From Eimeria necatrix (lineage: Eukaryota > Apicomplexa > Conoidasida > Eucoccidiorida > Eimeriidae), in the NCBI RefSeq assembly GCF_000499385.1, contig NW_013651812.1, forward strand, positions 176,280-240,279: a stretch of DNA of 64,000 nucleotides, given 5' to 3'. Of the stretch, positions 20,401-64,000 are shown piece after piece; within the stretch, counting starts at the first letter, position 1, and every line of letters begins with the position of its first letter. A model generated the notes under the pieces. The model searched no databases and had not been told where the DNA came from. It saw nothing but the letters and a program-made list of their open reading frames with translations. The translations under genes were made by a program, and so were the position numbers.

Positions 20401-23400
20401 AACGACATCGACGAGTGCTCGACTGACGCTGACGATTGCGGGGAGAACACACTGTGCAACAACACAGTTGGCAGCTTCGAGTGCACATGCATGGCTGGCT
20501 TCGAGGCCGCGGACGAGAAGACCTGCAAAGACATCGACGAATGTGCAAGCGGGACCCACACTTGCTCCGCCCACGCGACATGCACCAACACTGCAGGGTC
20601 GTTCACATGTGAGTGCAACCCAGGCTTTGACGGTGACGGCCACAAGTGCGAGGACGTGGACTTCTGTGGCCAGGGGCTGCACGACTGCAACGTGCATGCA
20701 GAGTGCTCGGAAAGCGACGACAACACCACCTTCAAGTGCACCTGCGGCATTGGGTACAGCGGGGATGGCCACGGGGAGAACGGTTGCCAAGACATTGATG
20801 AGTGCGTTCAAGATGGCGCCTGTGGGGAGAACACAGTGTGTACCAACACACCAGGTAGCTTCGAGTGTGCTTGTGTGGAAGGGTTCGTGGCTGTGGGAGC
20901 GAAGCTCAAGGGAGCAACTTCACTGACCTGCGTAGACATCGATGAATGTAACGACGCCTCGAAAAACACTTGCGCCACTTCAGCCGACGGAGGCTCTTGC
21001 AAGAACACCGCGGGCAGCTATGAGTGTTCGTGTTTGCCTGGGTTCCAGGGCGACGGCCACAGCTGCGCAGATATTGATGAGTGCGCCACCCAAGGCGTAT
21101 GCGGGGAACATGCGACATGCGAAAACACTGCGGGTTCGTACAAATGCACCTGCGAAGCGGGCTACACTCAGCAAGATGGGGCCGTCGGCTGCATTGATAT
21201 TGATGAGTGCGCAGCCTCCACAGCAGTGTTACCCGAGAACGCCACTTGCGTGAACACTGACGGCAGCTATACCTTCGAATGCGTGCCCGGCTACCGCCAT
21301 ACAGAGAATGGCTGCACCAAGATTGATTTCTGCAGCGAGAAGGGATGCAATGCGAATGCCAGCTGCAAAGAGAACGACGCAGGCACCGAAGCCATCTGCA
21401 CCTGCCACAGCGGGTACGAGGGCAATGGCGAAGGAGAAGAAGGCTGCAAAAACATTGACGAGTGCTCCATGGGAGAGCCATGCAAAGACTTCGGCGAGGG
21501 CGGCATCTGCGTCGATTCTCCGGGATCCTTCAGCTGCTCTTGCGCTGCCGGTTTTATCAAGAGGCGATCTACTTGCCAGGATATAGATGAGTGCCTCGAC
21601 GGAAAGATGAACACTTGCGCCTCCGTGGGGGGTGTCTGCACGAACACCGTCGGCTCCTTCACCTGCTCTTGCGCTGCTGGCTTCACGGGTGACGGCCACA
21701 CTTGCGAGGACATCGACGAATGTGCTACGGCGGCGCACACGTGCGATCCCAACGCCACCTGTGTCAACACTATCGGCAGCTTCGAATGCGGATGCAAGGA
21801 GGGATTCTCTGGAGACGGCCACACATGCACCGACATCGACGAATGCGCTGACCCTAACCTTAACAAATGCGACACACACAAGGGGCTCTGCCAGAACGGC
21901 ACTGGGTCCTACACTTGCGGGTGCAGGCCTGGATACAGCCTCGCGGCGGACGGCTTCACTTGCGACAGTAAGTGACATGTTGCAGGACGTTCTTTAATCT
22001 TCTTGGGCACGGTTTCTGCTGCAGTTGAATTTGGTCAGTAGTACTTTGGGTGGGCAGAAATGGGGTCGTAAATGTTTGTGTTGCCGTCCGCTTTTCAGAT
22101 GTCGATGAGTGCACTGCTGGCACGGCCACTTGCGGAGACCGCAGCTTCTGCGTGGACACACAAGGGTCATACAAGTGCGAGTGCAAGAACGGCTACCGCC
22201 AGTCTGGGGAGGACTGCGTGGACGTTGACGAGTGCGAGGCTGATGTGCACACATGCAGCGAGCACGCTACGTGCACGAACACTGAGGGGAGCCACACCTG
22301 TACCTGCAATGAAGGATACCAGGGAGACGGGAAGAAGTGCGAGAAGACAGTGGGCCCTTGCGACAACTCGCCATGCGGCAACAACGCCATGTGTGAAGCT
22401 ACTGCCGATAGCTACAACTGCACTTGCAATGCTGGCTACGAGATGAAGGACGGGGCCTGCGTCGACATTGATGAGTGCCAGGCAGGCACGCACAACTGCG
22501 ACCCGCATGCTGACTGCAGCAACACCGATGGATCCTTCACGTGCACGTGCGGTTCCGGCTACACTGGTTTGGGTACCCTTTGCGAGGATGTGGACGAGTG
22601 CGCGGGCAACCATGCGGGCTGTGACATCAACGCTGTTTGCACTAACGTCCCTGGCTCGTTCACTTGCGAGTGCAAGACTGGCTTCGAAGGCGATGGGCAC
22701 GAGTGTACGGAGAAAGTGGTGCTCCCTGGCCAGGTCCACTGCGATTCCTGGACTGCCTGGACCGAGTGTACAGCTGAAACTAAGCAGAGCACCCGCAAGT
22801 GCGTGGCTCTTCCTCTCAAGGTCGAAGTGAAGCTTTGCCCCGATGCTGACATTTCATCCTGCGGTGAACTCGGCGAATGGTCATCATGCCCAGGAGCTGA
22901 CAACAACCTGTCGCACCGCAGGGCAGAGAAGTTCGGGGAGCCGGGCTGTGAGCACGCTGAGGAGGTCAGGGAGTGCGCAGATGAAGGTCAGTTTGAAATG
23001 TCGCGCGTGGTTTTCTTTCTGCTCCGTTCAGTAGGTCTTGCGAAGTAATCTTTTACATATCGAATCAATACGTTGTTTTTGACTCTCTTGCCTATCTTTT
23101 TGCAGAAGTTGAGGAGCGCTGTGGCGCCTTTGGCGAGTGGACTGCATGCGGCGATCCTTCTGAGGGATTGAGGACCAGGACGCGCCAGAACTGCCCAGAA
23201 GAGGCAGAATTCGAGCACTGCACAATGCCCTCTGCACCCTCTGTTCCCGAGGGCGGCAGCAGCTGCACAGAGTTCGGGGCCTGGAGTGAATGCGTGGCTG
23301 ACGCACATGGGATCAAGACGCAGCACAGGACGTGCGCACACAATGAAGCTGTGCAGGAACACAGAATCTGCACGGTGGAAGACCCACAACAATGCGGGGA

Positions 23401-47997: not shown

Positions 47998-50900
47998 CTA
48001 AATGACCAGTTCAAGCTCATGACGGGCAAATGAATGCTTCCCGTCGTCGGGAAGTCTTGGGAAAAAAGCTACCATCGCGTCCTGGTGCCCGATGTACACG
48101 TTGTTATACACCCTCCAATACACCTCTCGTACCTGCATAAAAAAGCACAACGGCAATAAAAATGAATTCGAACTCCGGGCACACCCATGGTGACCCCCTG
48201 TTTGCACCATGCAAGCAGTATGCAGATCGACCAACATGCCAACTGTATCGACACAAATTCGGGCTTTGGCTTTGCAATAGATGCTGGGACAGCGCGAGAA
48301 AAGGGGACATTCGAGAGAACAAGTTACTTACTTTGCGTGCAGGGTGGAAGAGGCCCAAGATGACATATCGGAAAACAACTCCGGGCCCAATAGCAACGCG
48401 CATGCCGTCCACAGCATCAAAAAACGCCTGCAAGCAGCATAAAAAAGCGCACAGAGGAGTGTTATAGAAAAGCGCACAGAGGAGTGCTAATGCTCGTATA
48501 GCGTATAGCGCAAGTTGTCATGAAAAGGCACTTTCCAACATGCAACAGTGGCTACACTGGCCACATGCACATGCAACAAAAAGTCCTTTCAGCAAAAAGG
48601 GAAAAGGGAACACGTAACTTACTTGGACCATGTGTGCCGACACTTCGAAAATGTTTGGCCAGACGTAGTTAAACAAATGAGTAAGCGCATCTTCACAGCT
48701 CAGTCCGTGGACGCCTATGTAATCCACAAACACCGGAAAAGCTTGCAACTTCGTTGCAACATGTTGTTCTACCGAACGCCATCAAAAGTATGAAGCATTC
48801 ATGTCACTGAAATCCTTCCCTGTTACCTGGTAACTTTGCCCGTTGCTGAATACAGTGCGCACTAGTGAAACAGTGTCTTTCAATAACAAATGCTTGAGCA
48901 GAACGAACTTATGCTCACCAAGCGCAAGGTGCTTGCAAGCCCAAGCTGCAGTTTGTCTGTGGACAAGGTCTCTGTCCATGAGGGCATCTTCTAACAACGG
49001 CGTGACTGTATAGATGTAGTCCTTGGCCATCTCGCCAATGTACTCAAACATGAAGCTAAGAGTCTTCAAGACGCCGTTTTGAATGTTCAGTTCGGGCACT
49101 CGGTATTCGTTGATGAGCGCAGGCAGCACAGAATACGGCAAGCAGGTCTCAGCCACGATAGCAATGGCGATGGTCGTGCAAAGTCGCAACTGACGTTCTT
49201 GCATCTTCAAATTGTTCAGGAGTGTTGCCAGCACGTCTTGCGGCCCTATAGTCCTGGCAATGTAGCCAAACGTGTTCACAGTGGCTCTCCGAATGCTCTT
49301 TTTCTGGGCTCTCAACAAGTCCAAAAGGTCGAAGCAAATCCTGTCCCACTCCTTGGGCGACACCAAGTCGCCTCCGCGATCGGCGATGCGGCCGATGAGG
49401 TCAATAAGGTTTTCCTGCACTTTTTCGTGGCGGTTTTTGAGGATGGGAGTTAAGCGAGGCAGCAGATCCTTGATGGGAGGCGTCATCTTGTTCATTCCAA
49501 TCACGTTCACGATGGCTTTCAAGGCGCACAGAATGCTTCCCAACACATCGGGGTACTCTTCGCCCAAGTACTCGTACAAGAACAAGCCCAAGTGGCCCAG
49601 CATTTGCTCTTCGCCACTCTTGAACATGACAGTTGCAATGCGCGCCACGAGGTCTGCGGCTTGCTGCCTCAGCTTCGCCGAAGGGGTGTTCAGCCGCCAG
49701 CGAATGACACCGCAGATCTGCGGGAGGTAGGGCTTAACGCGGGTGGAGAGTGCATTAACAATAGTTGAAAAGCCATTTAAAAGCACTTGAGTGTCCTCAG
49801 TGGTCTGTTCTTGGAAGGCGTAAAGCAAGCCGTCGATCAGCTGCTCCTCCAGCCTCCCGTCTATGTCCGCCACCCCCCCGTTCACTATCACCTGTTCTAT
49901 CGTTTCGAGAGTCACCTTTCTGAAGGGCTCGCTGGGGTCTTTAAGATCATCTACAATGAACTTAATGACGTGGGCCCCGCCGGCCTTGGAGGCCAACTCC
50001 GTGGCGGTTTCGGTGAGGAGTTTGGCCGTGCGGCGATCCAGGGCGTTTCGGACGAGCCACATTTTCGAAAAGAAAGGAGGAATGATGTCAGTGCGAATAT
50101 ATTCCCCCTCCACGCCCTCAGTGGCCACGCACTGTTTGACGACTCGCAAAACGATCTTTTTCATTTCCTCGTCGTTGGTTTCGAACTCCCGCACCAGCAT
50201 CACCATGACTTCCCGCGTGTAGTAACTCGCGTGGTAAGCGTCCATCAGCGGAATGATGGAGCCAATGGCCTTCAAGTAGGCCGCCAGGCTCTTCCCCTTT
50301 ATTTCCCCTATGCCCTTCCACAGCGGCCGCAGCACGCAGTCGAAGGCCTCAATGCCGTAGGGCGCTGCGGCCTCGGCCAGCGCGGCCAGGGCCAGCGCGG
50401 TGACAGTCTTAATTTTGAGAACGGGGTCGTCGAGCCCGTGTTGGATTATTTCCACGAACTGCCGCAAGTGCGGCAACACCCCGCACCCCAGCAAAATGGC
50501 TATTTGCTGAATTATTTTTATCCCCGTGTGCCGCGCCTGCCACGACTTCTTGCTCTGGCACACGGCCTTCAAGAACAGCAGCAGCGAAGGCACTCCCAAG
50601 GCAGAGGCCACCACAGCAAACGCCCTGAAGAACAAAAAAGAAAAAAAAAACAAACATTCCAACCCCACATGCGCAGGGCCTACTGCTACTACTAGAGGAG
50701 CTGATGCAGACAAGCTAGAGGGACTTGAAAGATGCAAACATGCATGTTCTGGTTCGCGCTGCTGCAGCTGCTGCAGCTGCTGCAGCTGCTGCAGCTGCTG
50801 CAGCAGCAGCAGCAGCAGCAATCTCAACGCGGGCCTAGTGAAGGTCAATCGGAAACTTGCACGAAAGCGCTAAATTTCGCAACTCCGATTTTGCAAGCCG

Positions 50901-52161
50901 CGTGAAAGTGCACTCGCGAAGGCCCGTCTGTACCTGGCAGTTGTGTTTCGCACGTATTCGTCGGGATGGTCAATGTCTGGCCTCATGGTGGCGATCATGG
51001 TCGCCAGGCCCGCGGCCTTGGCCAAATTGCTGATTATTTCTCTGCCTTCTATGCGGGCGTAGTAATCCTCGTCGATCAGCAGCGGCTCGATGACCACCAG
51101 GATCTTGTGGGCGTAGGGCCGCACCAGGTCGTCCAGCTTGTACAGCACGCGATCTATGACTTTCACGAGCAAGTGGCGCTCCTGCAGCGCACAATCCCGC
51201 AAAACTTTGCAAAAAAATGATGAAAGTGCTTTGCAAAAAAGTGATGAAAGCGCCGTTTCATCGAGGCCTGGCCAGCAGCCGCGCGCACGCGGCTCAGCTG
51301 TACATACACCCCAACTTGCACCGCGCCCACCTGGTCCTCCAGCGTCGTCTGCATCATCAGAGGCAAAATTTGGTTGAAAAGTGCAGCAGCTCCGAACTCT
51401 TTTGCTTTGTCAGTCAAAATGCGCAGCGCAGAACGGCGCAGCGGGGGAGTTCCGTTCTTGATCTTGAGCAGCAGCAGCTGGATCTTCTTTTCCTTGACTT
51501 CCTGCAAGCCCAACACACAACACAGCAGCACCTCCGATCACTCCTAGCTTGCACTTAATTAAAAAATCAAAATTTGGAGAATTCAACTTCTGCAAACCCA
51601 GCTTCCCCTCCCGAAGCCCGGAAGCAGCAGCGCGCCCCCCAGAGTCACCTCCTGGGTCATTTGGTCTTCTGGTTTTTCTTCAAAGAGCTTCGAAAAGAAG
51701 TGGAAGTCCTCAGCCTTCATCTGCACGCCCCCAGAAGCCTCCCCCAGCCCCTGGGGGTCCAGCAGAGACCCCGTGGGGTCCAAAGCCTTCACCGAAATGC
51801 CCCCCTCTTCAGGCATCACGTACATGGGAGTGACCCCCAGGGGAGTGGCAGCAGCAGCAACTCCGGGGGTGGCGGGGCCCATCCCCGAAGAGGCCAGGGC
51901 CTGCTGCCGCGCGCGCGCTGCAGCAACAGCAGCAGAAGTCGGCGGCGGGTTGTAGTCGCTCGGCGGCTGCACCACTTCGTAGCCCTCAGTCGGCATTATT
52001 CTGTCAAGTTCTTCATCTGTCAAGTATCTGTTTCTTTCATCGAACTCCTGCTGCAGCCGCAGCGCCAGCAGCTGCTCCGGGGTCTGCAAAGGAGTGCTGG
52101 GGGTCATCGGCGTGGACCCCAGCCCTGCGAAGACACGCCTCCGCAGCCCCAGCCCGCTGCA

Positions 52162-52205
<44 letters not shown>

Positions 52206-52320
52206 CCAGGGGGCGGCGCCTGCAGCAGCAGCGGCGGAGCCGCGCCGCCTTCCCTGCGGCCCGCAGGCACCCGCAGCGCCAGCGCGCCCCGCACGCTGCC
52301 CGCAGGCACCAGCAGCAGCA

Positions 52321-52354
<34 letters not shown>

Positions 52355-53664
52355 CGCGCACCGGTCATGGCCAGCGGCGTGGCGCCAGGGGTCAAGCCGG
52401 AAGTCATGGGGGTGGCGCCCGGAGTCTGGGAAAGGCCGGGGGTGGCGAGGCCGGCGTCGGAGCCGTCGGCCAGGCGGGCCCCCGTGAGCGGAGTGGCCAT
52501 GGCCGAGCCCACCCCCGAGCCCTCTTCGCCGCCAGGCACTGGAGTTGCGTCCCATCGACTTTTCTTTTTCATTGCCAACGGAGTTTGGCCTCCAGGCCCC
52601 GCCACGAGCGGCGTGGCTCCCCACTGGCCGGGGGTGGGCGTTTCCTGCGGTGTACGTACACCCCAGCGCGCGCGCGTGAGCGCGCCGCTTCCGCGCCGAT
52701 CCGCGGGAATTTAGTGCTTTCCCGCTCAGATTCAAGTTTAAAAGAGTAAAAGTGTTGAATAAAAGTGGAAATTCGGAAGTTTCGCGAGAAAAAAAACGAA
52801 AAGTGGAAAAGTTGCACAGAAAGCTGCACGAAAGCTGCACGAAAGCTGCACAGCGACGTACCTGGCCAGTGCCGGGCTGCGCCGGCGTGGCGTCCCACCG
52901 GCTTCTCTTTTTGGGTTTTTGTTCTGCTGCTTCTGCTGCTGCTTCTCCGCCAGAAGCCATGGGCGTGTCGCCCCAGCCGGGGGCCTGGCCGCCGGCCTGG
53001 AGGGGAGTGTCCCAGCGGCTGGTGAGGCTGGCGGCAGCAGCAGCAGCGCCCTCGCTGCCCTGCTGCTGCTGCTGCTGCTGCAGCGCCAAGCGCTCTGCGT
53101 CGGTGAGCTGGCGGTCGCCGGCCCAGCGGCCGCGCTTGCCCGCGGCGGCCGCGCCCGCCGCCTCCTGCTGCTGCTGCTGCAGCAGCTGCTGCGCGAAAGC
53201 CGCGTCTTCCTGCAGCTTGCGGATTTGTTTGACTGCTGCTTGCTTCTCCCTGTCGAGCTGCTGCTCCACCATCACGTCTGCGTAGCTGCGGGCGCTCACG
53301 TCGGCCCTGCGGCCCCCGTCTGCAGCGAAAGGGTCTTGTCTTTCGGGCGAGAGCGCTCGCTGGAAGCGCTGCCTGCGGTACAAGTCCTCGCGAGCGACGC
53401 TGGCCTTCTTCTCGAGGAGCGCTGCAGCGTCGCTCGCGTCCCCCCCCCCGGCGGACAGCATCGCTCGCCGCTCGCTCTCCACCAGCCGCGCCACCGAGTC
53501 CACGCCCCTGCGCTGCGGCTGCGCCTCTTCGCCGAAAACGGCCCCCAGCGGCGTCGGCTGTTCATCTTCTGCGGGGATCTCCGAGAGGTACTGGTGGACG
53601 GGCGTTTCGCCGTAGAGGTGTGCGTCGAAGGCGCCCTTCGAGGTCAGCGGCGCCTGGCTGCCCG

Positions 53665-53709
<45 letters not shown>

Positions 53710-53746
53710 GGCTGCCGGAGCCGCCGCGGCCGTCGCCGTTCTCCAT
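47998..53746 (-). CDS. SF3B1: Splicing factor 3b subunit 1 (SF3B1/SF3b155), 9 exons, 1363 aa
   Basis: Core of the U2 snRNP SF3b complex; its HEAT-repeat ring holds the branch-point helix. Exons (minus strand): 53746-52862, 52644-52362, 52124-51649, 51501-51331, 51181-50934, 50624-48919, 48714-48623, 48427-48332, 48132-47998; phases close to 1364 codons with the stop. The N-terminal half is disordered, with poly-Ser (about 13) and Gln/Ala tracts from CAG runs, then repeated SRWDATP/TPxxTP motifs that in the family bind U2AF-homology partners and are phosphorylated. From exon 4 it is highly conserved: [99 protein letters not shown]. The stop at 47998 follows ARHELELVI, matching the usual end. 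It is slightly longer than the 1304-residue human protein because of repeat tracts. Start chosen as the first ATG of the open N-terminal exon ([12 protein letters not shown]). Confidence 0.97.
48443..48490. repeat. Short tandem duplication in an SF3B1 intron
   Basis: The string aaaagcgcacagaggagtg occurs twice, 27 bases apart, in the intron between SF3B1 exons 48714-48623 and 48427-48332. Confidence 0.75.
50757..50821. repeat. (CTGCAG)n/(CAG)n tract in an SF3B1 intron
   Basis: Alternating CTGCAG units pass into pure CAG. The tract lies in the intron 50625-50933, not in coding sequence. It is the leftmost long CAG tract of the repeat-rich part of the window. Confidence 0.9.
52158..52352. repeat. 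Two (CAG)n runs inside one SF3B1 intron
   Basis: Runs at about 52165-52203 and 52315-52350 fall in the intron 52125-52361. On the plus strand they create a long glutamine/serine open frame that is not a gene. Confidence 0.9.
52649..52662. repeat. Palindromic 14-mer GGTGTACGTACACC
   Basis: Perfect palindrome directly upstream of the acceptor of SF3B1 exon 2: on the minus strand the palindrome is followed immediately by GCAG and then the exon. A variant (tgtacatacacc) lies at 51299-51310 in another SF3B1 intron. Confidence 0.9.
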
Positions 53747-54907
53747 CGCGGCCGGAAGCGCTGACGCTAGCCCGCAGGCAGAACGCGGGGAAAGCCCCTG
53801 CCGCAACTGCTGCTATCCAGCCCAAGTGCTGCTGCTGCTGCTGCTCGCCCGACAGCCCTGCTGCTGCGCTGCTGCTGCTGCGTCTCGCCCGGAACGGAAG
53901 CGCTTTGTGCTGCAGTCCGCGAAAAAGCCCCTAAGGCCGCCAAAGGCCTTCGAATCGCTGCGCTGCAGCGCGAAATTCAACGCGGCCGGCCGCGGCTCCT
54001 GCGGTGGCGGCAGCTGAGCTCTCCAGCCTCGCCTCTCAGCTGGCCATGGGCTCCAACAAAGCACTCCGCAAACAAAACGCAAATGCCTACTCCGAAGAAA
54101 AGCTTGGGAAACTGCGTAAATCTGCGGCGCTGCAGAGGCCGCCGCAGCCGCCGCGGCAGCCGCCATTCAACTTCCCCTGCATGCAGACAAACCCGCAGCG
54201 CCAGCGGGCAACCCCCTTCGCTCCCCAGTCGATTCCTAGCCAGCAATTTTCTCCAATCTTTTCCTGCAAAAGCAAAAGGAACGCGCAAAATCAGCGCAAG
54301 GGCGCAGCCTGAGACGCCGGCGTGCCCGCGGTGCCCCACATTCCGCACGAGCATCCGCCCGAACTTCCGGCGTTTTCCAACCCCTTTTGGGCTCCAAAAG
54401 AAGAAAATATGTAAATGAAATAGTTTTAGCGGCAGAGCTCAAGTAGGGGCGAGCAGGGCAAGCAGCACACGCCCAGTTTCCCGCGCTTCCCCCTGGGTCT
54501 GAACTCCCGCGGGGAGGCAACTTTGCAGCTTGCTTCATGCATGACGGCTTCAGCCACAGCGTAGGCACTTAAGCCCTTAAAGTGAAGAGCAGGAGAGGCT
54601 GAGCTGAGGCTGCAGCAGATCAGTGCAAAAGGGTGTTAGTTCCATATCATTAGGGGTGGCTCTCTGTGAGCTCGGGCTCACTGCGAACACCCTAAGCGCT
54701 GTTCATAATGAAGGACCCTTAGTAGGGAAGTGAAGCTGCAGCAATAAGAGATTTGTATGGCGTCTGCAGGCTGCGGAAGTTGTTTTGCTGCTGCAGCTTT
54801 CCTCGGCCTGAAGCGCTATTTGAACGCCGCTGGGATGTAGACTTCGGGCTGCGCAGGCCAGCAGGTGCAGATCCGCATTTAAATAGCCTTTAGGATCATC
54901 TTTAAAC

Positions 54908-54950
54908 AGGAAATACTTTGAGTATTCCCAGGAAATACTTTGAGTATTCC
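54908..54950. repeat. 22-bp direct duplication
   Basis: aggaaatactttgagtattc occurs twice back to back, near 54908 and 54930. Confidence 0.85.
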
Positions 54951-55817
54951 ACAAGAATATCTAGTTGAACGGGAGGTTGCATGCATGCATGTCTATACGA
55001 AGTTGTACAGTTGTTTGTTTCGTGAGTTCGATCCGTGCTTATATCTGAATTACTTGTCTACACAGAACATGAATACATATTTTGCATTATTATTGCATTT
55101 GAAACACAGTTACAGGCATACTTTATGGCTGGGTTCGGAAGCCACTGTTTGTCGATGGTCAGTGCAGGAATTTGCCTTAGCTCTGGAGGCACAGCGCTGT
55201 TTTTTGGTTTTATTGAACGAAATTATGTTTATTAAGTTTGAGTTCGTGTTCAAATGCATGCGGGATGCATGCGGCATGCATGCGGGATTTGCTTGTTTGC
55301 ACCTTTTTGCTCCTTGCACATATGCTGAGTTCAGTTACTTTCGTCTTTGAAAACCGGAAATATTAAAATATTTCCATTTTCACCAGTTCTCCCGCAATAA
55401 GAAAGGCCCAGAAACAAATTAAGAAACAAATTAAGAAAGACTTCGTTGCAGCTTTCTGCACGAATTCAATGCGAGCTTTCTCATTCGCAGTCTGCTGTTG
55501 CAACTTTTCACGTTTCTCCAGCAAAAGGCGCTCGCTGCGTCTTTTCCATTTTCTTTTTTTTTCTATTTTGTCTGAAACAGATAAAGTTCTGGTTGTGTGG
55601 ATCTCCTCAAGTGTTTTCAAATAAGCATATAAGTCTATTACAATTATATTTTGGATTTATTTCTTCCAGTTTTGCCCACCAGTGTATTCATTTATTGAGT
55701 ATTTTATTTGAATTTGGCCGTTATGTTTTTGCCTTTCTGCCATTTCCTCAAGACAAGAGGAAAAGGGGAAATGACTTAGCGCATCTACTTACTTCGAAAC
55801 CTCGGTGAAGGTACATT

Positions 55818-56040
55818 CTAGCCACGGCTAGCTACGGCTAGCTACAGCCAGCTGCAGCTAGCTACAGCTAGCTATGGCTAGCTACAGCTAGCTTTGGCTA
55901 GCTGCAGCTTGCTACGGCCAGTGACCGCTAGCCACAGGCGGCTACAGCTACAGCTAGCTACGGTTAGCTACAGCTAGCTACGGCTAGCTACAGCTAGCTG
56001 TAGCTAGCTGTACATGGGGGGAGCTAGCCACAGCTGCTTA
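55818..56040. repeat. About 10-bp GCTAGCTACA minisatellite
   Basis: About 20 imperfect copies of a 10-bp unit (gctagctaca/gctagctacg, with degenerate versions) in tandem. Each unit carries the palindrome AGCTAGCT, so the array can form many small hairpins. It lies between two divergent genes. Confidence 0.92.
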
Positions 56041-56910
56041 CAGCTCGCGCCTCGTGAAAAGAGAAAACAGGAAAGCAGGTGTCTTTGTGGCTCGCAGCTT
56101 CTGCGTGGGAAGTGTTGAGAGTTTCCCGAAAGAGTTGTAATGTGAAGTTTCTGGGCTGGCGGTTTTGTCTAAATTTAAACAAAGTGTTCTATTTAGATTT
56201 CTTTGTTGAAATTTGAACAGAAGGATTTATTCAGTTGTGACAATGAAGGCGAGCGAAGGGATCTACCACTCCCAGATATGTGGCCTTCTGCAAGGAGCAG
56301 GATCGCCCAGCAGCACAGCTGCAGCGAATGGCAATTTGGAAGCAGCAACAAATTAAAAAGCAATTTGGGACTTTAATAACGAAATTAAGTTGCGAAGTTG
56401 CGAAATTTGTGACTGCTGCGCATGCATTCCGCAGGCACCTGGAAGCCCCGGCAGGTTCCCCGTGTCCAGCCTCGACGGATCCGGAGTCAAACGAGAGAGC
56501 TATTGCTGCACATTTGAAACGGAAATGATTGGAATGCAAAAAGAGAGAACACTAACTAAAAAAGGCGAATAAAAGTGGCGTTTGAGGCCTTCGCAGACAA
56601 CACTGAGCAGCAGCGCCGCGGTGGGGCTGGGTACGCCGCGCTGCGGCCTGGGTCGCCGCATGCGGAAAAGCGCCCCCGAAGCCCCACTGACATTTATTTT
56701 GTGCAAAATGACAAACTTTCGGATAATGTTTGCGACTTAGCATGTTTTCTTTGCCGCGGGTTCGCGGGAAAGGCGGGCGGCGTCCGCTGCGCGGTGTTGG
56801 TGGCGGTGGCCGCAGCGCTGGGGTTTCGCGCGGACTTGGGCTGAATCTGCGGGTTTTCGCGCGGATCTCGCGCTGATTTCGAATTGTTTTGAATAGTTTG
56901 GGACTTGCGG

Positions 56911-56999
56911 ATGGTTTCGGAGCTTGCGGCGGGGAAAGTCGCGGCGGATCGGCCGCGGGCGCGGCTGCGTCGGCTGAGGGCGAAGGCGGAGCCGGCGGA

Positions 57000-57032
<33 letters not shown>

Positions 57033-58499
57033 CTGCTGCAGCAAGCTGGCGGGAGAGGAGCCGCCGCGGGAGCAGCAAGAAAAGAAAAGGGAGCTGCAGA
57101 AGCCCTCGAAGGCGGAGCGGATTCTGCTGCCCAGCGAAGACCCCGTGTACCGGCCTGCGCTGGCGCCCTCGCAGCTGCCGCTGGGCTTTTCGCAAGTGGC
57201 CGCCAGAGGCGAAGAGAGCTTCAGCGAGCAGCAGCAGCAGCTGCTGGCGCTGGGGGCCCCCGGGGCCACGGGGCTGTGGCGCATGCATGCGCGCAGCGGG
57301 CTGAAGTACCGCAAGGGCCCCTTCACGCAGGAGGAGCAGCAGCTGCTGCGGGAGGCGCTGCAGCAGCTGGCGCAGCAGGAGGGCCTGGGTTCGGCGGAGG
57401 AGGCTGCGCGGAGCCTGGCGAGCGGCGGGGGCCCCCGGGGGGGCCCCCGGGGGGGCCCCCTGGGGGCCCCCCTGGGCGCCGCGGCGGGGGGCCCCCCGGG
57501 GGCCCCCCGGGGGCCCCCCGGCCGCTTCCAAGCCGTCGCCCGCTGCCTCCCCGAACGCCCCTTCGCCTCCATCTACGGCTACCTGCGCCGCAGCATGGCT
57601 GCGGGGGTGCGGAGGGGCCCCTGGGGGCCCCTCGAGACGCTGCAGCTAGCTGAGCTAGCCAAGCAGCTAGCTGGCCCGCGGCGGGGCTGCTGGGTGAAGA
57701 TTGCTGCAGTGCTTAACCGGCGGCCCGCAGACGTTTGCGACAAGTGGCGGGCCATTGCCCCGCGGCTGAGTCACTACGAGGCCCTGGCCCGCAGGGCGCT
57801 GCGGGAGGCCCCTGCTGCTGCTGCTGGCGGTGCAGCAGCAAACTGGCGAGGAGCTGCCGGCCTTCGGAGTGCCCTGGCGCCGCATCCAGGCCGAGAACTT
57901 CCCGCAGCAAACGCATGCATTCTTGCGGAGGGAATACAACTTGCTGCTGCTGCCGCAGCTGCTGCAGCAGCGGATGGGCGCGGAGCCGCGGCCCGTGCTG
58001 CTGCGCCACCTGCTGCGCTGCTTCCAGCGGCTGCAGCAGCAGCAGCTGCCGCAGGGGCTGCGGGGAGTCGAATGGCTGGACATTTTGCCCCTGGCTCCTG
58101 CGCGGCTGCAGCGGGACTTGCTGGCAGCAGCAGCAGCAGGCTTGATGCGGGAGCGGGGGCTGGGGCTGGAGGCTGCGGTGCCGCTGCTGCTGCAGCAGCA
58201 GCAGCAGCAGCTCGCCGCCACCCGCAAGAAAGACGCAGCCAGGCTGCTGCGCGCTGCGCTGCCGCTGCAGCAGCAGCAAACCCTCCACGACCAAGTCCAG
58301 GCCAAGGCTGCTGCCAGGGGCTGGAGTCTCAAGAAGCAGCGCCGGAAGCTGCGGCGGGCCATTCGAAGAGCAGCAGCAGCAGAGCTGCAGCGCCTCAAGA
58401 CACGGCTTGCTGCTGTCAGGGAGGCGCCCCTCAACGCGCCCCCCAAGGGCGTGCAGCACCAGCTCCGGGATCAGGCCAGGCCCCCCGCGATCGAGGACT

Positions 58500-58545
<46 letters not shown>

Positions 58546-58685
58546 GCTGGCACTTGAACAGGGGGGAACGGTCGGAGCCACTGCTGCGCTGCTCGACACG
58601 CCCTTCACAGCCTCCGAGCTGCCTCTGGCGGAAGCAGCGGAGAAGCGAGACGCGCAGCAGCAGACGCGTGCAGCTGCTGCTGCTG

Positions 58686-58717
<32 letters not shown>

Positions 58718-59074
58718 GCTGCAGCGGGGGAGGCCGAGGGCGACGAGAACGAGGCCGGGAGCAGCAAACTGCTGCAGCAAAGCGACGGAAGCGCGAAGAA
58801 GAGAAAAAGAAGCAGCAAGAAGCAGCAGCAAAAGGAGCTGCTGCTGCTGCCTTCCTCCAGTGCTTCCGAAAGTGAACAGGAAGCGGCGGTGCTTCCTGCA
58901 GCAAAAGAAAAACAAAAAGTCAAAAACAAAAACAAATCCAATTTTGAATTCAAAGAAAAAGACAAAAAGAAACAGAAAGTGAAAGAGCCGGAGGAGCTGC
59001 AGGCGGAGGTTTCCGAATCGCCGCAGAAGAAAAAGAAGAAAAAAAGAAAAGAATGCGACGAAGAGCCCACTTGA
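56911..59074 (+). CDS. Myb/SANT-domain nuclear protein, about 720 aa, with one frame discontinuity
   Basis: Probable DNA-binding protein. From ATG 56911: basic N-terminus, poly-Ala from a CTG run (57002-57045), a first Myb-like repeat (KYRKGPFTQEEQQLLREAL) interrupted by a Gly/Pro block (57427-57525), a second repeat (RRGPWGPLETLQLAELAKQL ... WVKIAAVLNRRPADVCDKWR) and a third (LLLLLAVQQQTGEELPAF ... PWRRI). The C-terminal half has Gln, Ser and Ala tracts and a strongly basic nuclear-type end (SPQKKKKKKRKECDEEPT). The VCDKWR signature resembles TTF1/REB1/DMTF1-type Myb repeats. The frame shifts by one between the second and third repeats, around 57770-57830: either an indel in the CTG run or a 25-base GT-AG intron at 57770-57794. 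Repeat tracts make the long antisense frame 57713-59254 open by chance. Confidence 0.83.
57427..57525. repeat. GGGGGCCCCC-type block repeat in coding sequence
   Basis: Runs of 5-7 G alternating with runs of C encode Gly/Pro/Arg inside the first Myb-like repeat of the nuclear protein. Strongly self-complementary and able to form G-quadruplexes. A similar block lies at 60176-60360. Confidence 0.9.
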
Positions 59075-59805
59075 GTTCATTACTTTTCCTCTTTGCACAA
59101 ATTCTTGTTTATTTGCATATATGAATTGCCACTGGGAACTTAAACTCAAGAAAATGGACTCTGCGAATATTTGCAACAACTGCATGAAGTTGAACTTGCA
59201 ACTCCGCCAAAGTGGAAGGACAGCCTGACGATGCAGAAGTGCAAATATTTGCAAATGCAGAAATTTGCAACAAATTCAGACAATAATATTCATGCAAAAG
59301 TGCATATGCATGCACTTGTTCAACTGTGCAGAATATGCTTACCGCTGGTCCTGTGCGCGTGCTGCGGATCCGCAGAAACAGCAGGTAAACGCGCTTTAAA
59401 AGTGTGCTGGTGCTGCACATCTTTTAATTTCTTTTTAATTTCTTTTATTTAATTATTTTGCACTTTCTGGCCGTCATCGCCACGGGGGCGAGGCTGCGCG
59501 CCTCACCTGGTGGCTGTTCTTCCGCCATGCAAACATGCAGTGCATGCAAACAATTTAGACTTAAAGTGCATGCAAATAGTTTAGAATTTATAATAAACAC
59601 AAATAGTTTAGAATTTATAATAAATACAAGTTGTAGAGTAAATGCAAATTATAATTGGACTTGCGTGGCAAAGAGATCCGGCAGCCTCAGTCAGTTCAGG
59701 TTCCCTGCAGCGCCGGCAGCTGATCTGTTCCCTTCTGCTGCACTTGGAAATAATTTTTCATTTTTAATTCAACTTCATTCCAAGACTTTGAAAAAAGAGT
59801 TCGAG
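59075..59805. other. Short convergent intergenic stretch; possible tiny minus-strand gene
   Basis: A minus-strand ATG at 59528 opens MAEEQPP and ends at a gtgagg donor. A gtaagc donor lies at about 59341 and a frame ending at 59109 reads TLAELQVQLHAVVANIRRV. Phases do not close in any combination I tried, so no gene is called. A 27-base duplication (aatagtttagaatttataat) lies at 59576-59630. Confidence 0.3.
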
Positions 59806-61247
59806 TTAATTGAATTGATTGCAAGGAGGCGAGACTCTGCGCTCCCTGCGCATATTCGCCTGCGAAAATTCAAGCTGCTGCAGCAGCAGCTTCTGCTGCA
59901 GCAGCAGCTTCTGCTGCAGCAGCAGCTTCTGCTGCAGCAGCAGCTTCTGCCGCAGCAACAGCAACATGGTCTGCTGTTGCTTCTCGGCATGCCGCGCAGC
60001 TGTTGCTGCTGCTTCTGTTGCACGTTGCAAAGCCTCAATAGCTGCTGGTTTTTGCTGCTGCTCCGAGCTGTGCTGCTGCTGCTGCTGCTGCCAGCTCCTC
60101 TTCTGTGGGAAGCCGAGTCAACGGGTAAACAGTGTTAATTGCCGGAGTCGGAGAAACGGGCCCGGGGGCCCCTGGCGCCACTGGTGGGGGGCCCCCCCCA
60201 GGGGCCCCCACAGGGGCCCCCCCAGGGGCCCCCCCAAGGGGGCCCCAAGGGAGGCCCCAAGGGAGGCCCCAAGGGGCTGCCGCAGGGGGCCCCCCAGGGG
60301 GGCCCCCTTGGGGGCCCCCCTGGGGGCCCCCTTGGGGGCCCCCTTGGGGGCCCTGCTGGAGATTGAGGCGGGTGGGTAAGTTGAGTTCGGGGATTTCGGG
60401 TTCTTTGGAATAAAAGACTTCTGTGAATTCCATGAGCTGAAGAGAAGTGCAGTTAAGTTGTTGAGTGTTGAACTTGAAAAAAATTCAAGTTTTTGAACTT
60501 TGAACTTGAAAAAAATTCAAGTTTTTGAATTTTGAACTTGGGAAAAATTCAAGTTTTTGAATTTTGAACTTGAAAAAAATTCAAGTTTTTGAATTTTCAA
60601 GTTTTCGGCTTTCTGACTTTTACCCACAGCTTTCAGAATCTGCTCCGCCAAGTCCTCAGGGCCTGCAGAATGTTGAATTGAAATAAAAGTTAAATTTGAA
60701 TTTTAAATTTAATGAATTTCAAATTTGAACTTCAAATTAATTTGAACTTCTCACTGGCCAGTTCTGCTTCTGTCTCAGTGCATTTTCGCCTGCATTGCTG
60801 GGGGAATTTAAAGTTGAATTTCTTTTTCGAAAATTCAATTTAATTTTTTGAAGTTTTTTGAAGTTTTTTGAAGTTTTTTGAAGTTTTTTGAAGTTCAGCA
60901 TTTAATGGAGAATGAATTGGCCAAGAAATGAGGAAAAGTGGCATTTAATGGCATTTAATGCAGAATCAATTAAGACTTCTTTTGCAAGTTCAGCTCTTAA
61001 TTCGGCCTTCTCTGCAGCAGCGCTCGTTATTGCGGCTTTCAGGCGCAGCAGCAGCAGCAGCAGCTGCTGCTGCTGCTGCTGCCAGTTACCAGCTGCGAGC
61101 GGTCTTCGCCGGGGCTTGCTGCAGAGTGGAAGTTGCTGCAGCAGCAGGTTTTGAAGTATGCTGCTGCCTTACGGATTCTGGAGACTGTCATGATGCAGCA
61201 AATCTCGCAGATGTCCTGGCCGCACTGCAGCAGACATTTGAATGGCT

Positions 61248-61278
<31 letters not shown>

Positions 61279-62068
61279 GGACTTGCCTGCGCCTCTTCTG
61301 CTGCACTTGCACTTGCGATCGAAAACGCAGCGCAGCGCTCCTCCCTCGCCTCTGCCGAGTCGAAGCAGCAAAAATAAATCGAAGTCCAAGAGAATCGGAA
61401 AGCTGCAGCAGCCAAGCTGCAGCAGCCGAGCTGCAGCAGCCGAGCTGCAGCAGCTGAGCTGCAGCAGCCGAGCTGCAGCAGCCGAGCTGCAGCAGCAGCG
61501 CAGCAGCAGCAGCAGCGTACTCAGGCGGTGGAAGCTGCATTCACATTCCGGGGGGAGAGGGGGGTCGCCGCGCAGGGCCTCGTCGGCGGCGCAAACAGTT
61601 CCTGTTTGGAGAAAAAGAAAAAATTCAACTTCGCAAATTCGACTGAGTCCGAAAGCGCTGCGCAGTACCGTTGTGGACATCCGTGACTTGGGCGAACGGC
61701 CCGTCGGCGAGGGCGCTGGGGCCGAGCCCGCGCGGACTCCACGCGCGAACAAGTGCGAACTGCAGTGAAATTAAAGAGACAAAAACAAAAAGCATTTTGA
61801 AAAGCTTTGCAAAAAATGCAGCTTTCCGAGATCAGTTCAAGTTTCGCTTTCCGCGGCGAAACTTGAACGGAACTTGCGGCGGTGGTTGGGGTGTACGTAC
61901 ACCTCAGCCCGCGCAGCCACGCGCTCCAAGCCGCAAAACTCGCCGCACTTTTCTCTGTCCATTCCCAACTCGGCAAACGTGCAACAGCAGCACTTAAACG
62001 GTCTTTGCTTGCAATTCAACTTCCTTTTTCCGCCGAAGTCCTTCAAAAACCATTCCAAGTCTTCAGCG
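59806..62068 (-). CDS. Unrecognised spliced gene with Cys-rich, Gln/Leu and Gly/Pro segments (5' incomplete)
   Basis: Nine exons on the minus strand: 62068-61903, 61759-61669, 61601-61521, 61224-61173, 61118-60977, 60773-60755, 60662-60628, 60436-60182, 60102-59806. Every phase closes and the total is 379 codons with the stop. The N-terminal part has EDLEWFLKDFGGKRKLNC, a CCCC cluster and FALVRAWSPRGLGPSALADG; the middle is Gln6-Leu6 followed by a charged Ala/Glu helix (EKAELRAELAKETEAELA); then MEFTEVFYSKEPEIPELNL, a Gly-Pro block, poly-Gln, a coiled-coil-like stretch (AIEALQRATEAAATAARHAE) and a KLLLQQ repeat. The first exon listed starts with one base of a split codon, so a 5' exon is missing; it may lie between 62069 and 62420. 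No family recognised. Weaker choices: the donors at 60628 (gct|gtgggt) and 60182 and the acceptor at 60773. Confidence 0.65.
59875..59950. repeat. 18-bp coding repeat (KLLLQQ)
   Basis: Four tandem copies of an 18-bp unit (cttctgctgcagcagcag) encode the repeat KLLLQQ in the last exon of the unrecognised minus-strand gene. Confidence 0.9.
60176..60360. repeat. Gly/Pro-encoding GGGGCCCCC block repeat
   Basis: About 185 bases of alternating G and C blocks with units such as caaggggggcccc, coding Gly-Pro-Gln/Pro-Trp on the minus strand (exon 60436-60182). Both strands stay open across it. Confidence 0.9.
60470..60600. repeat. AT-rich imperfect tandem repeat with internal dyad
   Basis: Roughly 40-bp units, each containing cttgaaaaaaattcaag, a perfect inverted repeat. 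The array sits in the intron 60437-60627 of the unrecognised minus-strand gene. Confidence 0.88.
60846..60896. repeat. 10-bp ttttttgaag tandem repeat
   Basis: Five copies in a row, in the intron 60774-60976 of the same gene. Confidence 0.9.
61403..61510. repeat. 15-bp GCTGCAGCAGCCGA minisatellite
   Basis: Six to seven imperfect 15-bp units followed by pure CAG, within the intron 61225-61520. The period is a multiple of three, which opens long false frames on both strands. Confidence 0.9.
61890..61903. repeat. Palindromic 14-mer GGTGTACGTACACC at a splice donor
   Basis: On the minus strand the exon ending at 61903 stops inside this palindrome: the junction reads gag|gtgtac, so the palindrome itself supplies the donor GT. 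Confidence 0.85.
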
Positions 62069-62517
62069 CTGCATGCGCAGCAGCAGCTCCAGCAGCAGGT
62101 CAACGCGCCCCCAGAAAGGCCGCACTCCGCGCAGCAGCAGCGCTTGGCTGCAGCAGCAGCAATTGGCTGCAGCAGCAGCACTTGGCTGCAGCAGCAGCAC
62201 TTGGCTGCAGCAGCAGCATTTGGCTGCAGCAGCAGCACTTGGCTGCAGCAGCAGCATTTGGCTGCAGCAGCAGCACATGGCTGCAGCAGCAGCACATGGC
62301 TGCAGCAGCAGCACTTGGCTGCAGCAGCAGCACTTGGTTTAATGGAAGTGCAAGTCTTGAGTCTCGAGTCCAACAAGTCGCCTCCCCGCTCCAGCAGGCA
62401 CCATCTCCTCGACTCTTGCTTTAATTATTCTTTAATTCTTTAATTCTTTTATTCTTTTTATTCTTTTATTTCTTTTATTCTTTTATTTTTTATTTTTATT
62501 TTTTATTTTTCTTTTCT
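62069..62517. other. Intergenic: 19-bp minisatellite and T-rich tail
   Basis: Holds the 19-bp array (62145-62340) and a (ttcttttatt)n T-rich tract at 62425-62515 just past the START gene stop. The missing 5' exon of the upstream-lying minus-strand gene could be around 62340-62420. Confidence 0.5.
62145..62340. repeat. 19-bp minisatellite (cttggctgcagcagcagca)
   Basis: About ten copies. Because 19 is not a multiple of three, successive units cycle through all three frames, and no unit contains a stop on either strand, so all frames look open. This argues against a coding role. Confidence 0.93.
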
Positions 62518-63330
62518 TCAAGCTGTCGGGTTGTACGGCGGCACGTAGTTGCCGTGTTCCTTCATATAAGCCTTGCAGGCCTTCTTCAGATTTTCCACCC
62601 AACCCACGGGGGCCCTCGCGGCGGTGGTGTTGACAATCCACTGAGCCCATCCCGCAAACCCTAAACCCTAAACCCTAAACCCTAAACCCTAAACCCCAAA
62701 CCCCTGACGCGACCCCCAGCAGCAGCAGCAGCAGCGGCAGCAGCACCAGGGGCAGCAGCAGCAGGAGCAGCAGCAGCAGCAGGAGCAGCAGCAGCGGCGG
62801 CGGCGCGCTGCTGCTGCTGCTGCTGCTGCGGGCCCGCGCCAGGTGTACGTACACCCGAGACGCACTTTGGGGATGAGACCTCTGACGTCAGTCTGCGCCA
62901 AAATGAAAAGAGTGGAGGAGTTTTCGTCGTCGGGCTTTTGCTGCATGATGTAGCCTGCAAAAAACAATGCCATTGGCAGCAAAAAGCGCAAAAAGAAACT
63001 TCTGACTTCTTTTTATTTCCCTCAAAAAGAATTAATGCAAAATTAAGTCCACCTCGGGTGTACGTACACCTGCGCCACGGCTCGGGTGTACGTACACCTG
63101 CGCCGCTGCGCCTGCGCCGCGCTCTCGGGAACTTGAACTGAATGAATTAAATGGAATTAATTAAATTATATTAATTAAATTAAATTAATTAAATTAATTT
63201 AATTTAATTAATTAAATTGAATTAATTAAATTCAACGAAGGCAGCAAACAAACCCGAAATCAAAGTCTCCGCTCTGACCACTCCGCTCCTCTCCGGCATC
63301 GAGGGATGGTCAGCCGACCTGCAGCCCCGT

Positions 63331-63389
<59 letters not shown>

Positions 63390-63672
63390 GCAGCAACAAA
63401 CGCTAGATTGGGGTCGTCCCCTTTTGTGGAACCCCTGGAGCTTGAAAAGAACAGCAGGCTGTACATACACCTGAATGCCGTGCAAGAGTCTAAAACTAAA
63501 TTAAAATTAAACTCAAAATTAAATTAAATTAAATTAAATTAAATTAAATTACAACTCTGTGGGGCCCCACAGGGGCAGCTCGGACCTCATAAGCATGCGG
63601 ACGATTTTGGCCTCCGGGTCTTCTTCAGTTCTCCTCCACTGCAGCAGCACGCAGCTCTTAAACAGTTCCAAT

Positions 63673-63712
<40 letters not shown>

Positions 63713-63907
63713 CAACAGCAGCAGCAGCAGCAACAGCAACAGCAGCAGCAGCAGCAGCAGCGGCAGCAGCAGCGGCAGCAGCAGCAGCAGCAGACCTGCA
63801 AGAAGTCTCTGTTTGAAACTGGAAAGGGGGCCTTCATGAGGCAGTAAATCATTTCGCAGCCGTCCACGTCTTCCTCAATCACCCGGTAGTCCCCAAACGT
63901 CGTGTCC
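62518..63907 (-). CDS. START-domain lipid-transfer protein (partial, 5' end beyond window)
   Basis: START domains form a hydrophobic pocket that carries one lipid between membranes. Five exons on the minus strand: 63907-63796, 63638-63553, 63318-63254, 62954-62866, 62640-62518; phases 0, 2, 1, 0 all close, giving 157 residues. Family features in order: MIYCLMKAPFPVSNRDF, HPSMPERSGVVRAETLISGY, LFILAQTDVRGLIPKWIVN and the C-terminal helix WVENLKKACKAYMKEHGNY. The protein ends soon after the helix (PPYNPTA). The first exon here begins with one base of a split codon, so more 5' exons lie past 64000. Resembles PCTP/STARD-type proteins; the lipid cannot be told from sequence. Every intron holds a CAG run, a palindromic 14-mer or a telomere-like tract. 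Confidence 0.92.
62655..62704. repeat. Interstitial telomere-like (AAACCCT)n tract
   Basis: Five to six heptamers with a variant aaacccc at the end, inside the START gene intron 62641-62865, just upstream (minus strand) of the last exon. The heptamer is the apicomplexan telomere type, but coding sequence continues on both sides, so this is not a chromosome end. Confidence 0.95.
62715..62830. repeat. (CAG)n with GGAG/GGCAG interruptions
   Basis: Several CAG runs and then CTG runs in inverted orientation, in the same START intron as the telomere-like tract. Confidence 0.9.
62842..62855. repeat. Palindromic 14-mer GGTGTACGTACACC
   Basis: Lies 11-24 bases downstream (minus strand) of the START exon end at 62866. 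Confidence 0.9.
63057..63098. repeat. Two palindromic 14-mers in direct repeat
   Basis: Perfect copies at 63057-63070 and 63085-63098, 28 bases apart, each followed by tgcgcc, in the START intron 62955-63253. Confidence 0.92.
63150..63235. repeat. AATTAAATT-rich low-complexity tract
   Basis: Nearly pure A/T made of attaa/ttaat units in a START intron. A related aaatt tract lies at 63490-63550 next to the donor at 63552. Confidence 0.9.
63330..63396. repeat. (CAG)n run in a START intron
   Basis: About 22 CAG/CAA units just upstream of the acceptor of exon 63318-63254 on the minus strand. Confidence 0.9.
63671..63795. repeat. (CAG)n/(CAA) run filling a START intron
   Basis: About 40 CAG/CAA/CGG units occupy most of the intron 63639-63795. 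On the minus strand the donor is followed directly by CTG repeats. Confidence 0.93.
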
Positions 63908-63914
63908 CTGCAGC

Positions 63915-63917
<3 letters not shown>

Positions 63918-63959
<42 letters not shown>

Positions 63960-63966
63960 CAGCAGC
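63918..63966. repeat. (CAG)n run at the window edge
   Basis: About 16 CAG units in the intron upstream of the first visible START exon. Confidence 0.9.
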
Positions 63967-64000
63967 TCGTCTCCCCCACAGCTCCCCCCACCTCCCCCCC

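Follow-up and report, generated by a model that had tools for sequence, protein, structure and literature searches.

A 14-base palindrome concentrated in repeat-rich Eimeria DNA as a putative dyad protein-binding site

Results

The palindrome GGTGTACGTACACC, which recurs in a 64-kb stretch of Eimeria DNA (the window, meaning that whole stretch), concentrates in repeat-rich DNA and is rare in repeat-poor segments. The element is a symmetric motif with the consensus of about CYSRGGTGTACGTACACCYSRG, roughly 22 bp long around an exact core of 14 bp. Judging from its sequence pattern, it is on balance probably a dyad site at the DNA level, bound by a protein that is dimeric or has two DNA-binding domains and perhaps belongs to the ApiAP2 family.

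The window holds five exact copies and two copies with two mismatches, whereas shuffled 64-kb sequences led us to expect 0.06 (matches at ≤2 mismatches: mean 0.06, maximum 1). Besides these seven, no further matches at ≤2 mismatches were found across the 64 kb, and the original prediction that the first 50 kb lack any copy was right. In the 44-Mb source genome we counted 2,413 exact copies against 0 for the reversed control; the 12-mer core, allowing ≤1 mismatch, occurs 5,134 times compared with 205 for its reversed control. We also performed a k-mer census over 231 kb, comprising the window and 19 loci of its own genome, 8 of which were picked for showing copies in the genome-wide listing. 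In this census GGTGTACGTACACC led the non-simple 14-mers when ranked by 1-kb bins, and among 14-base palindromes it stood far ahead, with 47 copies compared with 7 for the runner-up. The window shuffles, the genome count against the reversed control and the census all disfavour a chance word. The predicted recurrence is confirmed and is stronger than had been claimed, with seven copies in the window and 2,413 genome-wide, far above the control rather than at chance level. At least 120 stretches in viral contigs also match the 14-mer, which we judge to be roughly the chance number for so large a collection.

The perfect copies lie at 52649..52662, 61890..61903, 62842..62855, 63057..63070 and 63085..63098, all exact matches at the predicted starts. 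Both predicted variants also exist as two-mismatch copies with the sequence GCTGTACATACACC on the plus strand, at 51297..51310 and 63458..63471; their starts had been given as 51299 and 63461, 2–3 bases off because they were counted from the inner TGTACATACACC. Six of the seven copies are intronic in two homology-supported gene models. The SF3B1-like gene (48521..53746, minus strand; PF08920 and HEAT repeats), with both ends and several exon borders placed by eye, hosts the variant at 51297 (transcript strand GGTGTATGTACAGC), 20 nt from a donor, and the exact copy at 52649, which lies on the acceptor side 4 nt (GCAG) before the exon and bears out the prediction of a copy abutting an acceptor. 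The START-domain gene (62521..63907, minus strand; PF01852) hosts four: the 62842 copy lies 10 nt from a donor, the 63057 and 63085 copies sit 28 bp apart in the interior of one intron, away from its ends, and the 63458 variant is likewise intron-interior. This model joins five exons in one open frame and stops at 63907, its N-terminal part lying beyond. The START match emerged only once the exons were joined, and a Pfam scan of the three minus frames over 58.5–64 kb of the window gave no match. The seventh copy, at 61890, is unplaced, with no homologue recognised for the gene there, so that the claim that all copies lie in introns of three minus-strand genes holds for six copies in two genes. 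It is possible that GAG/GTGTAC at this copy is the donor of a minus-strand gene, with the palindrome supplying the GT as originally read.

Genome-wide, the palindrome is not confined to introns as had been proposed: two copies elsewhere lie inside conserved coding exons. One of these, in an AAA ATPase, is translated as VYVH and closes a Pfam match that aligns 59 residues to 59 positions; with the match equally long on both sides, we see no insertion there. In a crude coding-potential test based on codon usage, there was no clear exon avoidance at 82 sites, the coding-like fractions for sites and random positions being 0.56 and 0.41 (cut 0.1), 0.37 and 0.30 (0.15), 0.18 and 0.19 (0.2), and 0.04 and 0.07 (0.3). 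Scanned against Pfam in all six frames, L135:1501-5500 yielded a single weak match, below cut-off, in each of two of them.

We measured splice-site distances for eight intronic copies, two of them variants, in three modelled genes hand-picked as recognisable. Three of the eight have a splice site no more than 10 nt away (P 0.036), and at a limit of 20 nt the number is four (P 0.045), borderline values for cut-offs set after the distances were seen. The predicted tendency to touch splice sites is thus weakly supported. Similar placements were seen by eye in a dynein gene (14 nt), in a thioesterase-like gene (9 nt; assigned from a Pfam match below cut-off) and at a likely donor in an EF-G gene, and in a few cases the palindrome flank provides the CAG acceptor or the GT donor. 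Named homologues among the best EF-G matches came from E. media, E. flavescens, E. acervulina and Cyclospora cayetanensis, at 48–58% identity across 35–70% of the query.

All window copies fall within a repeat-rich (R-type) stretch at 48000..64000, its start approximate. CAG-type and AAACCCT runs, repeats present in the source genome as in Eimeria-type coccidia, number 0–3 per 4 kb before 48 kb and then rise to 6, 14, 24 and 39. Across the window and 11 loci, the 12-mer occurs 0 times in 77.6 kb of repeat-poor DNA and 18 times in 81.9 kb of repeat-rich DNA, a comparison biased by the choice of the window for its copies, and a test on nine contigs was added. In this test, outside the window, 31 of the 32 copy-bearing 1-kb bins drawn from the nine contigs were repeat-rich, whereas the background bins were so in 65 of 96 cases (Fisher p 0.0007); the exception was a three-copy cluster on contig C18. 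The 11 loci, chosen regardless of the motif, hold 0 12-mers in 30.6 kb of repeat-poor and 13 in 64.9 kb of repeat-rich DNA, and taken alone they show no significant preference (0/31 poor and 7/65 rich bins, p 0.09; 14-mer, p 0.17). The original prediction had missed this link to repeat-rich DNA. In Eimeria genomes, an alternation of repeat-rich and repeat-poor segments was reportedly described by Ling in 2007 for E. tenella chromosome 1. It has been extended to the whole genome (PMC3505466, PMC9131526), and the passages of these two papers on the alternation give no mechanism for it.

Half of the 12-mer sites surveyed (33/66) are isolated. At these 33 sites the flank preferences, read outward, are C (.89), C/T (.83), C/G (.99), A/G (.95) and G (.52), and the signal fades about 6 nt out. 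Other sites form tandem clusters with a spacing of 18–38 bp, and CAG repeats enclose some of the arrays. A motif-translation probe hit two short assembly proteins, at E 5.9e-12 and 5.0e-4, that by eye resemble translations of tandem arrays in which this palindrome, or a variant of it, is repeated; a further hit had E 4.7.

The halves of the motif vary independently at the two positions tested, in genome-wide counts that include tandem arrays and hence sites that are not fully independent. Flank position 2 gave 370 : 439 : 772 against 361.5 : 430.5 : 789 under half independence (chi2 0.73, p 0.39), and stem pair 2-13 gave 2413 : 522 : 31 against an expected 2410.7 : 526.5 : 28.7 (p 0.64). Independent halves and the lack of compensated stem changes at the tested pair argue against both an RNA stem and copied subfamilies. 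Simple half-site independence is nevertheless broken by a deficit of doubly changed centres (GGTGTATATACACC: 30 observed, 49 expected, p 0.002) and by an excess of one paired variant, GCTGTACATACACC, with 201 genomic copies against about 79 expected (2.5-fold) and 75 copies of the alternative combination GCTGTATGTACACC. This excess may point to a subfamily that has spread or to asymmetry of the site. In 285 kb that hold 80 exact 12-mers, 24 of the 30 one-mismatch 12-mers belong to two substitution classes out of 18, centre G>A (12) and outer C>G (12), a skew unlike neutral decay, which we infer should be more even.

Discussion

Of the three ideas put forward originally, a transcription-factor site fits best because the motif is symmetric and weight-matrix-like, its half-sites are independent and specific substitutions are tolerated, although the binder itself is putative. 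Each half of the ~22 bp site would most likely be read by one module of a dimer or two-domain protein, for which ApiAP2 would be the first candidate family. AP2-domain matches in the source genome number 29 or more, 22 of them above cut-off; any coccidian normally has such domains, and their presence carries no information on the palindrome site. The sites lie mainly in repeat-rich DNA, singly in introns and some exons and also in short tandem clusters, and probably arise and persist through selection for binding, which would serve chromatin or gene regulation in that DNA.

The main rival is a process like that behind HIP1, coupled to methylation, repair or gene conversion, that makes and keeps the word without any regulatory role. 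We consider it unlikely, though a single palindrome at the top of the k-mer census with 2,413 genomic copies is what it would give, the AAA ATPase copy was apparently created in place, and one of the two main variants is a transition at the CpG of the centre. Deviations of HIP1 itself favour outer bases, with a link to a methyltransferase (PMC4390886). The Eimeria site, however, is longer, has degenerate flanks and favours one genome compartment. Less probable still is a neutral, minisatellite-like word spread by slippage and duplication alongside the CAG and AAACCCT repeats. The tandem clusters, the co-location with simple repeats (some arrays lying within CAG repeats) and the paired-variant excess, as expected from copying, speak for such a word, while the isolated half of the sites with flanks conserved yet independently varying, flank pairs without excess similarity, the strongly non-uniform mutation spectrum and the copy within a conserved exon match without insertion speak against it.

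The two other ideas in the original prediction found no support. A hairpin or sequence element acting in RNA close to splice sites is improbable: the splice distances and by-eye placements are consistent with one, and the exact 14-mer (−4.5 kcal/mol) and variant GGUGUACAGACACC (−4.7) fold, but compensation shows no excess at stem pair 2-13 (31 against 28.7), the frequent variant GCUGUACAUACACC (201 genomic copies) loses the hairpin, its complement reaching only −0.4, and there is no Rfam match in 48–64 kb of the window. Some copies are, moreover, intron-interior and others exonic, and the distances come from hand-recognised genes with post hoc cut-offs and borderline P values. As for the footprint of a mobile, intron-like element, be it palindromic ends from a non-autonomous element or introns made by one, we think it very improbable. 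A palindrome dispersed across many introns, whose flank occasionally supplies a splice site, would suit it; yet the masked 150-nt flanks of 40 isolated sites show no similarity beyond the motif in excess of random places (19 of 780 pairs alike; random mean 16.3, range 7–37), so shared flanks did not appear. Nor was there an excess of direct repeats of 3–8 nt beside the 14-mer at these 40 sites (P 0.20–0.50), the half-sites are independent at two positions, and the AAA-exon copy lies in an equal-length conserved alignment without insertion.

Returning to the dyad protein site, a bolder version, which we regard as possible but doubtful, is that thousands of 22-bp gene-body sites, some in coding exons, let a single dyad-binding protein mark the repeat-rich bands of Eimeria chromosomes, as an architectural or regulatory factor that would distinguish R from P segments. 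A long, precise, symmetric site concentrated in one segment type offers a concrete handle on Eimeria banding, and site maps could tell whether the putative binder sets the bands or else gene expression or recombination within them.

No title or abstract among the related literature searched names the palindrome, which does not by itself establish its absence from print. One paper, about an aptamer, contains its 12-mer, and one has GTACGTAC together with Apicomplexa, in a microsatellite table. The main text on Plasmodium ApiAP2 specificities (PMC2965767), as distinct from its motif figures, lacks GTAC, TACAC and "palindrom", and passages of PMC8515493 and PMC12659853 do not mention the palindrome.

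Among known systems, HIP1 and the alternative HIPs of cyanobacteria are likewise highly overabundant palindromes with position-biased deviations, but they are bacterial, 8 bp long and tied to methyltransferases (PMC4390886), whereas the Eimeria site is longer and compartment-biased. Introners resemble it in reaching up to thousands of intronic copies and in being able to provide splice sites, and many, though not all, of their families have target-site duplications; they are, however, intron-sized (family median lengths 30–654 nt) and grouped by sequence similarity (PMC9860276), whereas the Eimeria palindrome is a short site that shares no flanks and is also exonic. For the R regions of coccidia, Lim 2012 (PMC3505466) described the palindromic octamer TGCATGCA, likewise as a feature of repeat-rich DNA in Eimeria, where trinucleotide and AGGGTTT repeats accompany it. 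The octamer differs in sequence and in length (8 bp, compared with 14 bp exact and ~22 bp with flanks here), and it is present in sampled loci without GGTGTACGTACACC, such as L136. Finally, the SPE2 sites of P. falciparum, bound by the ApiAP2 protein PfSIP2, are bipartite, with two 6-bp halves 4 bp apart that are both needed (PMC2829057), and the half-site GTGCA resembles GTGTA of the Eimeria palindrome. SPE2 consists of two imperfect repeats at chromosome ends (PMC2829057), whereas the Eimeria site lies as an inverted dyad in the gene bodies of internal repeat-rich DNA, with a putative binder.

Abundance and genomic distribution of the palindrome

We found five exact copies of the 14-base palindrome GGTGTACGTACACC in the window, together with two copies bearing two mismatches, all beyond 51 kb; dinucleotide shuffles gave 0.06 expected matches, confirming the original prediction of a recurrent palindrome late in the window. 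The window spans C287:176280–240279 of a 44.0-Mb genome, in which exact copies number 2,413 and the reversed word is absent; the 12-mer core with at most one mismatch occurred at 5,134 places (reversed control, 205). The genome itself was sampled in part, as approximately 285 kb of non-N sequence. Within 231 kb of own-genome sequence (the window and 19 loci, 8 of them picked because the genomic listing showed copies there), GGTGTACGTACACC was the non-simple 14-mer occupying the most 1-kb bins and ranked first among 14-base palindromes (47 copies vs 7 for the next). Two short assembly proteins matched by a probe made of motif translations, P0241 and P0242, resemble by eye the translation of a tandem array, built either from the palindrome or from its centre variant.

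The source genome carries AAACCCT and CAG repeats, and its EF-G has homologues in Eimeria media, E. flavescens, E. acervulina, and Cyclospora cayetanensis (48–58% identity over 35–70% of the query), which identifies an Eimeria-like coccidian. Such genomes are described as alternating between repeat-rich and repeat-poor segments (PMC3505466, PMC4287421, PMC9131526). CAG-type or AAACCCT runs numbered 0–3 per 4 kb of the window before 48 kb and then 6, 14, 24, and 39; every window copy lay within this run-dense part, past 48 kb. Over the window and 11 loci whose selection did not depend on the motif (159 kb in total), the 12-mer had 0 copies in bins with <1 run/kb (77.6 kb), 1 in bins with 1–3 runs (23 kb), 2 in bins with 3–8 (19 kb), and 15, including 7 in one array, in bins with ≥8 (39.9 kb). 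Copies of the 12-mer occupied 0/78 repeat-poor vs 11/82 repeat-rich bins (p = 0.0007), a comparison that includes the window, which was picked for its copies; the 11 loci by themselves gave 0/31 vs 7/65 (p = 0.09), and for the 14-mer 5/65 repeat-rich bins (p = 0.17). As an independent test, we turned to nine other contigs and took 15 stretches that were listed as bearing copies: 31/32 copy-bearing bins were repeat-rich vs 65/96 background bins (p = 0.0007, with bins within one contig not independent), and the sole repeat-poor copy-bearing bin was a three-copy cluster on contig C18. We read the palindrome as concentrated in, but not strictly confined to, repeat-rich DNA.

Other window features include a tandem array of 10/20-bp units (CTAGCTACAG / CTAGCTACGG; approximately 19 short units) at 55818–56009 and an array of GGGGCCCC-type G/C words with a 12-bp period at 60189–60353. 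A 1,166-aa open frame at 18475–21975 gave EGF/fibrillin-like matches, the best of which (41% identity) is a protein that is on file as an unverified contaminant of the Colinus virginianus (bobwhite quail) assembly.

Gene context and splice sites

The palindrome had been predicted to be confined to introns. Six of the seven window copies do lie in introns of homology-supported genes, two in an SF3B1-like gene (PF08920) and four in a START-domain gene, of which five exons, once joined, form a single open frame that matches PF01852; the seventh, at 61890, is unplaced. The START-gene intron holding the palindrome at 62842 also contains an interstitial telomere-like AAACCCT array (62656–62703). Outside the window, introns of an eEF1B-like gene (PF00736) hold two copies, the closer of which to an acceptor is 6 nt away, and a variant palindrome lies at the likely donor of an EF-G gene. 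Elsewhere, however, copies at 8279–8292 of locus L129 and 6654–6667 of locus L146 are exonic and read in one common frame as VYVH in conserved domains, namely at residues 67–70 of an AAA ATPase exon (PF00004, residues 12–70 to profile 72–130) and residues 133–136 of a dynein heavy chain exon (PF08385, residues 88–259); the palindrome is thus not confined to introns. Frequent contact with splice sites, also predicted, was weakly borne out: among eight copies in fully modelled introns, three lay within 10 nt (P = 0.036) and four within 20 nt (P = 0.045), a weak signal since genes were limited to recognisable ones and both cut-offs were chosen after the distances were known. Gene models are partial, with borders drawn partly by eye.

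Motif anatomy and variants

Flanking the 12-mer, the consensus reads outward C, Y, S, R, G before information is lost (33 isolated among 66 12-mer sites, 271 kb). Among 40 isolated of 82 sites, a set enlarged by two further loci, similarity past 22 bp was found in 19/780 pairs of masked 150-nt flanks, within the range for random places (mean 16.3, range 7–37, 30 draws), and direct repeats of 3–8 nt beside the 14-mer showed no excess (P 0.20–0.50). Sites were also clustered, with spacings of 18–38 bp, most commonly 20, 26, and 32 (285 kb). The same 285 kb held 80 exact 12-mers and 30 one-mismatch forms, comprising centre G>A (12), outer C>G (12), and the other 16 substitution classes (6 altogether).

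The palindrome fits a dyad for putative protein recognition: the motif is symmetric with halves independent at two tested positions, specific substitutions are tolerated, sites have nothing in common beyond the motif, and an exonic copy has no visible insertion. Were it instead an RNA stem, changes on both sides should compensate. As RNA, the exact 14-mer folds at −4.5 kcal/mol and GGUGUACAGACACC at −4.7 kcal/mol; GCUGUACAUACACC has no fold, and its complement reaches only −0.4 kcal/mol. At stem pair 2–13, genome-wide counts of unchanged, single, and compensated sites (2,413, 522, and 31) match independence (2,410.7, 526.5, and 28.7 expected), with no compensatory excess found. Descent from a few mobile ancestors should link left and right flanks, but the halves are unlinked both at this pair and at flank position 2, where G..C, A..T, and mixed classes, covering 1,581/2,413 sites, numbered 370, 439, and 772 genome-wide (361.5, 430.5, and 789 expected).

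Two observations run counter to a simple half-site model. Double centre changes were rarer than under independence (30 vs 49 expected, p = 0.002), so the centre is not read additively, and the asymmetric variant GCTGTACATACACC was in approximately 2.5-fold excess genome-wide (201 vs 79 expected). The other combination, GCTGTATGTACACC, was not above expectation (75 genome-wide); some variant counts take in arrays, such as 8 of these 75 on one contig. From its sequence counts, GCTGTACATACACC would be one asymmetric variant that is favoured or propagated. The strongest rival to a protein-recognised dyad is that methylation or repair may maintain the palindrome as a HIP1-like word (PMC4390886).

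Comparison with known systems

At least 29 AP2-domain matches are present in the source genome, 22 over the cut-off. An AP2-domain repertoire of that order is ordinary for a coccidian, and its presence does not identify the binder of the putative dyad. The nearest working analogue of the Eimeria site is SPE2/PfSIP2 of Plasmodium. PMC2829057 describes it as a bipartite, AP2-bound element with clusters both in heterochromatic domains and in telomere-associated repeats.
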